DNA from: an uncultured Gammaproteobacteria bacterium | Lineage (GTDB): Bacteria > Pseudomonadota > Gammaproteobacteria > Steroidobacterales > XN24 | Length of the DNA: 64,000 nt | Assembly (NCBI GenBank): GCA_947259915.1 | Contig: CAMYOC010000049.1 | Coordinates: 62,001 to 126,000, forward strand | Direction of reading: 5' to 3' | Notes under the pieces: model-generated | The model's database searches: none | Told to the model about the DNA's origin: nothing | Seen by the model: the letters and a program-made list of their open reading frames with translations, nothing else | Shown: piece after piece, positions 4,254 to 8,153 of the stretch | Position numbering within the stretch: position 1 is the stretch's first letter | Layout: the number at the start of each line of letters is the position of its first letter | Program-made: the position numbers and the translations under genes

Positions 4254-4853
4254 TCAGTAAAACGCCAGCTCGCAGACTGCGAGATCGGCCGTGAATTCGC
4301 GCCCGATCGCGACCAGCCCGATCCGCCGGAGTCGGCTCGGATCCAGTGGCGCGTTCAGGCGGTAAGGCTGGAAGATTGCAAACGGCAGTTCAACCGTCTG
4401 CCATTCCGGGCCGGCGGTGAACTCGGCCCGGTACGACTGCCACGGTCGGGTGACGTCAGGGGTGCGCAGGTGGACCGAGTAACGTTCCCCGTTGCCGCGC
4501 ACGGTCAGGCGAAGGCCAGTGTAATCCGCAGCGTCGAATGTCCGGCCCCAGGTTCCCAGGTCCAGCGCCGCCTGGATAAAGCCGCCGTTGTTTTCCAGTC
4601 GCACGTCGCCGGTCAGCCGCATGCATGCTCGTCCGTCGATGCTTTCGAACGACACGCGCTCCTTGGAGACTCCGCCCATTACCCGATCGCTGAAACCACG
4701 CCAGCTCGTGCCGACTCGCGATCGTTGCGTGGGGTCTTTGAAGTCGTCGATCACCATGACCGTGTCCGCCGCCAGAGAGGAGAGCGCGCCCGCAGATATC
4801 AGGCAACACAGGACGAAGCTTATCAGGATCGCATTGCGCGGACGCAGCCTCAT
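4254..4853 (-). CDS. CIA30-family secreted protein
   Basis: A protein of 199 residues with an N-terminal signal peptide (basic start, then about 18 hydrophobic residues, cleavage probably near SSLAA). The mature part has the CIA30 / NADH:ubiquinone oxidoreductase intermediate-associated domain: VIDDF near residue 34, WRGFSDRVMGGVS, NNGGFIQAALDL, YTGLRLTVRGNGERY and a W-x-S-Y-R-AEF segment. The mitochondrial CIA30 protein is a complex I assembly factor; bacterial versions are mostly uncharacterised and probably ligand-binding jelly rolls. The ATG overlaps the photolyase stop codon in an ATGA arrangement, so the two are translationally coupled. It is the last gene of the fasciclin-HiPIP-photolyase unit. 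Confidence 0.85.
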   Translation of the reverse strand: MRLRPRNAILISFVLCCLISAGALSSLAADTVMVIDDFKDPTQRSRVGTSWRGFSDRVMGGVSKERVSFESIDGRACMRLTGDVRLENNGGFIQAALDLGTWGRTFDAADYTGLRLTVRGNGERYSVHLRTPDVTRPWQSYRAEFTAGPEWQTVELPFAIFQPYRLNAPLDPSRLRRIGLVAIGREFTADLAVCELAFY

Positions 4854-6097
4854 CGGGTGACCGCCTGGGCCCCCGAAGCCGCAGATCCAATCCCTCGGAT
4901 GAGCGCCGGTATCTGCTTGCGGAACGGGAAGAATCCGTGCGTCGCGTGGGGCCAGGCGCGCCGGTCCCAGTCCCGCAACACGGGCACCAGTTTGATGGCT
5001 TTCGCGGCCAGCGCTTCGGCCAGTTCAGCGGTGGCCTCCGCGGTCGGCCCCGCCGGGACGTAAGGCGTGACGAGTTGTTCCAGGCGTCTGTCCACGGCCC
5101 ACGCCACGATTCTGCCGACACTGTCATTGGTGTTGGCGTGATCGACCCGGACCGCAGCCGTCAGCCCCCCGCGCCGCAGCGTGTCGTCGACGGCACCCTC
5201 GGCGAATGCCTGCACCCGGGGTGAAACACCGAAAGGCGATCGCCGCCCTGTCGCAGTGAGCACGGCGACGCGGTCAGCCGCCGCATAGTCACGCCGCGAC
5301 AAGCCTGGACCCAGGTCCTCCTCCGTCACCAGCAGTCCGCTTCGCAGGCCGCGACCCGGCAACGCCGGTTCGGGCGGCGCGACAGGCAGCGGCATCGGGC
5401 CGGAGGGGAGCGCGGCAGCGGTGGTCGACAACGTCCCGGCCGGATCAAAACGGCCCTCTGTGAATCGGGCAATGTTGGCTCGCCGGGCGAGATAGGTCTT
5501 GCCGCGGGTCTGCAGCCCGGCGACCCAGCGCCACGACAGGGTGTTGGAAGCCGGGTCCCCGTCCAGGAGGTGACGCAGAAAGAAATCGGCGCCCAGTTCC
5601 CACGGCAGCTCCAGAGTGAAGATCCAGATGCTCGCGAACCACATGCGCGCGTGATTGTGAAGATACCCGGTCTGCGCCAGTTCCTGCGACCAGGCATCGA
5701 AACAGTCGACTCCGGTCGTTCCGCCGGTCGCTGCCCGCCATCGGTCGTGCAGGCCGGCGTCCCGGTCCAGTTCATCGACCAGCTCCGTGACGCGGACCCG
5801 ATAGTCGTCCCAAACACCGGGTCGGAGTTCGAGCCACCCTTTCCAATAGGTGCGCCAGAAAACCTCCTGGACAAACTTCTCTGCGGCGGACAGGGAATGA
5901 TGCGCCAGCACCGCGGCCACGACTTCCTGCTCGAGGATCAGCCGATGACGGATCCAGGGCGAGAGCGTGGACACCGCGGTGTGGCGGCCCGGTCCGCGAT
6001 CATAATTTCGCTCTCGGGAATAGGCTCGCCCGGCCCGAGGCACGAACGCTTCCAGTCGCATCAGAGCCTCATCGCGGGTTGGTCGCCATTCTGTCAT
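4850..6097 (-). CDS. Photolyase/cryptochrome-family flavoprotein with apparently reversed domain order
   Basis: In this 415-residue protein, residues 30-220 match the helical FAD-binding domain of DNA photolyases. HTAVSTLSPWIRHR corresponds to the family's 'S.LS..L..G.lS' segment. FVQEVFWRTYWKG (73-86) keeps the Glu and Trp-Arg near the lesion site. GYLHNHARMWFASIW and LLDGDPASNTLSWRWVAG keep the Asn facing the flavin and the tryptophan-rich turn. The N-terminal alpha/beta antenna domain that normally precedes this is absent. Instead, residues 254-400 look like an alpha/beta domain and end in WDRRAWPHATHGFFPFRKQ, reminiscent of the antenna-domain exit. ATG 6097 has GGAG 5 bases upstream. The gene lies between the HiPIP and CIA30 genes. 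The family is firm; repair versus sensory function is not decidable from sequence alone. Confidence 0.82.
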   Translation of the reverse strand: MTEWRPTRDEALMRLEAFVPRAGRAYSRERNYDRGPGRHTAVSTLSPWIRHRLILEQEVVAAVLAHHSLSAAEKFVQEVFWRTYWKGWLELRPGVWDDYRVRVTELVDELDRDAGLHDRWRAATGGTTGVDCFDAWSQELAQTGYLHNHARMWFASIWIFTLELPWELGADFFLRHLLDGDPASNTLSWRWVAGLQTRGKTYLARRANIARFTEGRFDPAGTLSTTAAALPSGPMPLPVAPPEPALPGRGLRSGLLVTEEDLGPGLSRRDYAAADRVAVLTATGRRSPFGVSPRVQAFAEGAVDDTLRRGGLTAAVRVDHANTNDSVGRIVAWAVDRRLEQLVTPYVPAGPTAEATAELAEALAAKAIKLVPVLRDWDRRAWPHATHGFFPFRKQIPALIRGIGSAASGAQAVTR

Positions 6098-6151
6098 CGG
6101 TACTCCGATTTGCCAGAGTCTCGCCCTGAGCGGCTAGAAGCGCCGGGCGGA

Positions 6152-6505
6152 TTACTGTTTCCTGGCGACCCAGGCGTTACACCAGCCCTGTGCCTTGACC
6201 TGCTTGCCAGGGAAGATGGAGCACGGGGCGGCGCCACCCTCGCCCTGACTCTGGTACAGCGCGCAATTGTGACAGAACTGTTTGGCGCCGGCGTCTCCGG
6301 TGCGTTTCGGGAATTTGGCGGTGTCGACATCGGCGGCGTCGTGCACGTAGCCGAGCCTCAAAGCAGACGGGTCTTTCTCGTCTACGAGGGGCAGGTCGGC
6401 GGCGTTCGCGACCCGGTAAGCGATAGATGCGAGAGGCAAGTACGCCAGGCTGGTAACGCCGAGTTTCAGAAACTGCCTTCGCTCCTTGTGAGCCTTCTCT
6501 TTCAT
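6152..6505 (-). CDS. High-potential iron-sulfur protein (HiPIP), Tat-exported
   Basis: A protein of 117 residues with a twin-arginine signal (ERRQFLKLG, residues 8-16) and a hydrophobic segment ending near ANAA, so it is exported folded to the periplasm. The mature part carries the four HiPIP cysteines C78, C81 (CHNC), C95 (PCSIFPGK) and C109 (GWCNAWV), which bind one 4Fe-4S cluster. HiPIPs are soluble one-electron carriers. The gene starts 14 bases after a strong intrinsic terminator that closes the fasciclin gene, with its ribosome binding site (GGAGAAAG) directly behind the T-run. Expression by read-through or from a local promoter is therefore implied. It is followed after 54 bp by the photolyase gene. 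Confidence 0.94.
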   Translation of the reverse strand: MKEKAHKERRQFLKLGVTSLAYLPLASIAYRVANAADLPLVDEKDPSALRLGYVHDAADVDTAKFPKRTGDAGAKQFCHNCALYQSQGEGGAAPCSIFPGKQVKAQGWCNAWVARKQ

Positions 6506-7256: not shown

Positions 7257-7397
7257 CAAGTATGCGGGATAGCATCTGCCCTGAACGGAATCCCGCGTCG
7301 GGATGATGCGACCCGGATAGGCGGCCCGATGCCGCATGCGTATACTCCCCCGACTGTCACCGGGCCAGACGATGCCCGGAATCTTGGGGGAAGAGTT

Positions 7398-8153
7398 ATG
7401 AATAAGAAAATCATAGGGGCGGCCCTGCTGGGTCTGACCTGTCTGCCACTCGTCGCCACGGCGCAGCAGGAAGAAGACGAGTCCTATATCTACGCGACGT
7501 ATATGTATTGCGACGTCACCCGCGATGAAGAGGCGGACAAGATCGTCGAAACCGTGGACAAGCCGGTCATGGATGGCCTGGTGGCCAACGGTACGATCAC
7601 CGGCTGGGGCTGGCTTGCCCATCACACCGGCGGCAAGTGGCGTCGTATCCGCTATCACACGGCGGGGAGCATGGGCGATCTGCTCGGCGCACTGGACAAG
7701 ATCGGCGACGCGATCGAAAAGGCCAATGGCGGCGACGACACCATGGGCAAGATCTGTAATCAGCATGATGACTACATCTGGCGTTCGGTGGCCGGCTCCG
7801 GGGGAGCGACCGTCGACTCGGACCGGGGTAAGGCCGGTCTGTCGGTCTATCACGTGTGCAAGATGGCCGATGAGGGGCGCGCTGACGAAATCGTCAAAAC
7901 CGTGTTCGCACCGATTTATGACGCCCACGTCGGCCCAGGCAAGCTCAATTCCTGGGGCTGGTCAGAGCACATCGTCGGCGGTAAGTACCGCCGTCTGGCG
8001 ACGATGACCGCGGATGACTGGCCGACGCTGCTCAAGGTCCGCGGCGAGATTTTCGAGGCCATGGACGAGGCCGACAATCCGCTGGCCGACGAATTCTCCG
8101 AGATATGCGGCTCGCATTCGGATTATCTATGGGAGATCCAGCACGAAGGCTAG
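7398..8153 (+). CDS. Secreted protein with two tandem homologous halves, function unknown
   Basis: A protein of 251 residues. The signal peptide ends near LVATAQQ (about residue 22). The rest contains two copies of a domain of about 105 residues. Both have an opening Y-rich strand with a Cys (YMYCDV / YHVCKM), DEADKIVxTV-like helix, GWGWLAHHTGGKWRR versus SWGWSEHIVGGKYRR, and a C-terminal CNQHDDYIW versus CGSHSDYLW. The pattern suggests an alpha/beta-barrel-like domain with a paired disulfide, but I do not recognise a named family. ATG 7398 has GGGGGAAGAG upstream. It is divergent from the fasciclin gene and may be influenced by the same upstream region; a TATACT at about 7339 is a possible -10. 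A strong terminator follows. Confidence 0.8.
   Translation: MNKKIIGAALLGLTCLPLVATAQQEEDESYIYATYMYCDVTRDEEADKIVETVDKPVMDGLVANGTITGWGWLAHHTGGKWRRIRYHTAGSMGDLLGALDKIGDAIEKANGGDDTMGKICNQHDDYIWRSVAGSGGATVDSDRGKAGLSVYHVCKMADEGRADEIVKTVFAPIYDAHVGPGKLNSWGWSEHIVGGKYRRLATMTADDWPTLLKVRGEIFEAMDEADNPLADEFSEICGSHSDYLWEIQHEG

Follow-up and report, generated by a model that had tools for sequence, protein, structure and literature searches.

The window, the whole 64,000-nucleotide stretch of DNA analyzed here, carries on its minus strand an intact open reading frame (ORF) that starts at an ATG and encodes a photolyase homologue of 415 amino acids. Its FAD domain comes first and is followed by a separate C-terminal α/β domain. 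The locus contains the following genes, domains, and residues:

4850–6097, minus strand: NewPHL-type photolyase, 415 aa (ORF; Pfam FAD_binding_7; 90 full-length homologues)
5408–6082, minus strand: N-terminal FAD/catalytic domain, res. ~6–230 (phmmer against solved photolyases; Pfam PF03441 at 75–222)
5864–5866, minus strand: E78, equivalent of the lesion-contacting Glu, 100% conserved in the NewPHL set
5642–5659, minus strand: HNHARM motif, res. 147–152 (HNRxRM in most antenna-first photolyases)
5600–5602, minus strand: W166, corresponding to E. coli W359, the second Trp of the chain, 100% conserved
5531–5533, minus strand: W189, corresponding to E. coli W382, the proximal Trp of the electron chain, present in 100% of the NewPHL set
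5342–5407, minus strand: variable Pro-rich linker, res. ~231–252, poorly conserved among 91 sequences
4898–5341, minus strand: C-terminal α/β domain ("Z-domain"), res. ~253–400, with a predicted antenna-like fold (AlphaFold, Foldseek, hhalign to Phr5/antenna)
4913–4954, minus strand: WPHATHGFFPFRKQ, res. 382–395, antenna-exit-like segment, near-invariant among homologues
6152–6505, minus strand: HiPIP gene with a Tat-like signal (RRQFLKLG), intact (PF01355, E = 2.7e-23)
4254–4853, minus strand: CIA30-domain protein, downstream, sharing 4 bases (ATGA) with the end of the photolyase gene
7329–8153, plus strand: 274-aa ORF, no Pfam match

A single-sequence Pfam search of the 415-aa photolyase returned FAD_binding_7 (PF03441) alone, at residues 75–222 (E = 3.9e-23), with no match to the antenna family PF00875; by Pfam, the protein thus lacks the N-terminal antenna of the classical PF00875 plus PF03441 layout. 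In a phmmer comparison with solved structures, residues 6–194 align to residues ~207–394 of the Anacystis photolyase (1tez/1owl), and no PDB entry matches the protein past residue ~258. Because residue 6 is aligned to Anacystis 207/208, the FAD domain begins at about residue 6. The initial annotation had correctly placed this domain near the N-terminus without an antenna in front, but put its start too far in, at ~30 residues. The residues it had singled out (E78, W81-R82, HNHARM at 147–152, N185, W189/W191, and the segment at 382–395) are all found at those positions in the ORF.

The window photolyase is an ordinary member of the already known NewPHL class. NewPHL photolyases with an inverted domain topology were reportedly described by Emmerich in NAR in 2020 and have been known since. 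Passages of two papers attribute CPD repair in single-stranded DNA (ssDNA) and an inverted topology to this class (PMC13274461; PMC9426592), and a passage of the latter gives Prochlorococcus Phr7 an N-terminal FAD domain and a C-terminal Z-domain, equating it with NewPHL (PMC9426592). The NewPHL enzymes of Dinoroseobacter shibae (A8LJA9) and Methylobacterium mesophilicum share with the window protein the N-terminal FAD domain, a C-terminal second domain, and a Trp dyad; likened through descriptions in passages of citing papers, they show no difference from it there. Prochlorococcus Phr7 likewise combines a FAD domain with a Z-domain and falls in the same clade of the FAD tree, although its sequences are divergent, being ~45–51% identical to the window protein over the FAD domain only. 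A Z-domain profile matched the Phr7 loci, assigned as such by architecture and phylum and equated with NewPHL following PMC9426592, at 1e-11 to 1e-14 in 11 of 12 cases and at 1e-3 in the twelfth.

Two further related systems share some of these features and differ in others. The short photolyase-like FeS proteins and cyanobacterial Phr4/Phr5/Phr6 are, like the window protein, FAD-first with an HNH motif, and carry an antenna-like domain after the FAD domain, either separate (Phr5) or fused. Unlike in the window protein, this downstream domain is a recognizable antenna. FeS-cluster cysteines are reported for Phr4/Phr6, whereas the window photolyase lacks the four-Cys set and has a single cysteine (C132) in 415 residues. 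Class I CPD photolyases (E. coli PhrB, Anacystis) have the FAD domain and the catalytic and lesion-contact residues in common with the window protein, but differ in their antenna in front, Trp triad, and HNRxRM motif.

A maximum-likelihood tree of 78 FAD domains placed the window protein (P0001) among NewPHL/Phr7 (Prochlorococcus-like) with 100/99 support. NewPHL, Phr7, and the cyanobacterial FAD-only proteins fall together and are parted from the antenna-first enzymes by a 100/99 branch, at which the tool warned of long branches meeting. The tree is unrooted and therefore says nothing about the ancestral domain order.

AlphaFold modeled residues 236–415, using 88 sequences, with a pLDDT of 89 and a pTM of 0.83; the single-sequence prediction of the whole protein reached a pLDDT of 39, and the C-terminal domain is thus the only part modeled well. 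The C-terminal model is five-stranded and Rossmann-like, in the order strand, strand, helix, strand, helix, strand, helix, strand, followed by helices. Set against the topology of the antenna domain, this predicted order is that of an antenna minus helix 1. The best Foldseek match in the PDB is Arabidopsis cryptochrome 3 (CRY-DASH, E = 1.5e-3), and the match length and fold suggest that it falls within the antenna part of that protein. The initial annotation's α/β reading of residues 254–400 is thus borne out by the predicted model, whose fold resembles the antenna. Photolyase/cryptochrome entries recur through the PDB list with TM-scores of 0.42–0.53, against 0.33–0.45 for the listed universal stress proteins, which rank close behind, and Foldseek E-values are ~1e-3 at best. 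In a viral structure library, the top three matches were Myxoma M127L, a granulovirus protein, and, at rank 3, a fowlpox "hypothetical photolyase".

The profile evidence runs through Phr5. We collected 12 Phr5 domains from the loci; in cyanobacteria, these have a gene of their own behind the FAD-only one, except in locus L160, where the domain is fused. With hhalign, Phr5 aligned to ordinary antennas over the antenna length (P = 3.8e-9), and the C-terminal domain aligned to Phr5 in register from the first strand into helix 4 (P = 1.1e-4); the direct alignment of the C-terminal domain to the antenna profile was weaker and confined to the C-terminal part (P = 1.7e-3). The scores of 26.7–32.8 compare with a maximum of 23.1 for 62 unrelated null families, which we assembled from ORFs neighboring the homologues, and with 11–12.5 for reversed decoys. 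With Phr7 added to the profile, the direct score became 21.8, inside the null, and the Phr5 score remained at 31.9. Profile searching of each half separately, as the initial annotation had proposed, thus connects the C-terminal half to the antenna by way of Phr5 and not directly. A single-sequence comparison of the C-terminal domain with PF00875 also gave no match. By eye, WPHATHGFFPFRKQ is in register with the antenna exit at the point where the profile alignment stops. A Pfam search of 88 C-terminal domains at a loose E-value gave scattered weak matches, on which we place no weight, with PF00875 in 2 of the 88 (best E = 0.048). BLH_phosphatase (PF04273) was touched by seven of these domains (best E = 8.2e-5). 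The fusion in L160 (1239–2984, minus strand) is a cyanobacterial ORF of 582 aa in which a FAD-first photolyase domain is followed by a Phr5-type antenna (residues 403–561) in one chain; it resembles the reported Phr6.

Because of the antenna-like fold and the Phr5 profile link, permutation is favored over replacement by another fold. The best reading, by a clear margin, is a relocated antenna rather than an unrelated Rossmann-like domain: most likely, the C-terminal domain is a photolyase antenna that moved behind the FAD domain, degenerated, and lost its first helix. At ~10–15% identity, its homology to the antenna is supported by the profile chain together with the predicted fold, in place of any single direct significant match. 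The reversed domain order proposed at the outset therefore stands, and permutation is its favored explanation. For the class as a whole, we lean slightly towards the Z-domain of NewPHL being an ordinary antenna moved behind the catalytic domain, with Phr5/Phr6 as the intermediate.

The strongest competitor is an unrelated Rossmann-like domain (HUP/universal-stress-protein-like) that was fused independently and whose antenna likeness is convergent or reflects no more than the Rossmann-like class shared by both. Among the high-ranking PDB matches there are indeed universal stress proteins, along with further Rossmann-like folds, at comparable E-values; this protein has no Pfam antenna match, and only two of 88 homologues touch PF00875, compared with seven for an unrelated family (best E = 8e-5). 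We nevertheless consider this origin unlikely, as antenna matches hold the best rank, with TM-scores up to 0.53 versus at most 0.45. In addition, the C-terminal domain aligns in register with Phr5, whose own homology to the antenna is clear, and does so with a score higher than any of the 62 null families; the sister FAD-first group carries a recognizable antenna at the same downstream position, separate or fused.

Returning to the relocated antenna, its role in light capture has probably changed. Where the antenna has a WNRxYEP-type segment, the C-terminal domain has TPYVPAGP, and chromophore contacts there are therefore probably not kept. Chromophore binding would have been lost, and the domain is more likely a lid or scaffold that closes the FAD site than a light harvester.

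The catalytic machinery is well preserved. A column check of the NewPHL alignment showed that W189, W166, W191, E78, N148, N185, and D179/D181 are conserved. The second His of HNHARM occurs in 100% of FAD-first sequences, whereas this column is Arg in 100% of the antenna-first sequences examined. At the position of the triad's third Trp (W310 in the classical enzyme of the same genome), the NewPHL set has mostly T/A/S, and a Trp dyad (W189/W166) replaces the triad in the window photolyase. A passage of PMC8948257 credits the D. shibae NewPHL with a "mere Trp dyad". An altered route of light energy or electrons to the flavin, as initially suggested, is thus confirmed in part, by the missing third Trp, a trait already reported for the NewPHL class.

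From the class and the conserved residues, we expect blue/UV-A light to excite the reduced FAD; electron transfer from the flavin would then split a cyclobutane pyrimidine dimer in ssDNA. FAD would be reduced via W189 and then W166. By analogy with characterized relatives, light-driven CPD repair in ssDNA is the likely role. The genome holds three photolyase-family genes: a class I/III-like CPD enzyme, a PF04244 (FeS-type, (6-4)-like) enzyme, and the window gene. No DASH photolyase was found in this assembly, which is 94% complete; given two other photolyases and no DASH, the window gene probably fills the single-strand role. NewPHL membership, ssDNA CPD repair, a two-Trp chain, a relocated degenerate antenna, and a single-strand role make up a joint explanation that we hold with high confidence. 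A cryptochrome-like light sensor, suggested by the weak scores of "cryptochrome" models on the FAD domain, appears improbable in place of a repair enzyme: the CPD-contacting and FAD residues are conserved, and passages of PMC9426592 and PMC13274461 describe characterized NewPHL members as repairing CPDs in ssDNA.

The FAD-first architecture is widespread in bacteria. Ninety homologues from proteobacteria, actinobacteria, and a cyanobacterium have the same start and end, near-full length, and the same domain order. A search of 59 genomes, comprising the window's own genome and its relatives, gave a match in 12, near-full length in 11 of these, own genome counted. A scan of GTDB genomes yielded at least 595 candidates, at least 587 of them relatives. 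The best 80 of these are full-length, at 45–57% identity, and come from Rhodobacteraceae, other proteobacteria, actinobacteria (Curtobacterium, Frigoribacterium, Rathayibacter), and a cyanobacterial MAG; among the matches listed, many Rhodobacteraceae relatives are full-length at ~48–57% identity. The viral contigs searched held no relatives, and matches in phages were partial and limited to the FAD domain. Since the 90 homologues share start and near-full length, no antenna is concealed upstream by a frameshift, and the region of 54 bp plus HiPIP, where the initial annotation had considered one might hide, contains an intact gene. A truncated or frameshifted ordinary photolyase that lost its N-terminal antenna through assembly or sequencing error would also begin at the FAD domain, but is ruled out by the identical architecture of these homologues and the intact neighbor 54 bp away, leaving it virtually no chance.

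The chain from the antenna through Phr5 to the C-terminal domain may be the one point that is new here, and it bears on the claim that NewPHL is primitive because it has no antenna domain. If the chain is true, one exchange of domain order separates all FAD-first from antenna-first photolyases, and the lack of an antenna in NewPHL is merely apparent. The rooting argument would then weaken, and the idea that FAD-first photolyases are ancestral would be deprived of its chief support, the supposed absence of an antenna from the start.

The HiPIP gene lies upstream of the photolyase across a 54-bp gap (6098–6151). A Tat-like signal marks a protein for export, which rules out HiPIP as an electron donor to the flavin. 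HiPIP is also found directly upstream of the photolyase in four gammaproteobacterial loci (L003, L007, L044, and L052) and was not found next to it in the other loci examined. On the downstream side, the 4-base ATGA overlap indicates that the CIA30 gene is probably co-transcribed with the photolyase; in locus L079, a CIA30 gene lies within ~3.5 kb of the photolyase. The plus-strand ORF of 274 aa appears by eye to consist of two related halves of ~110 residues each.
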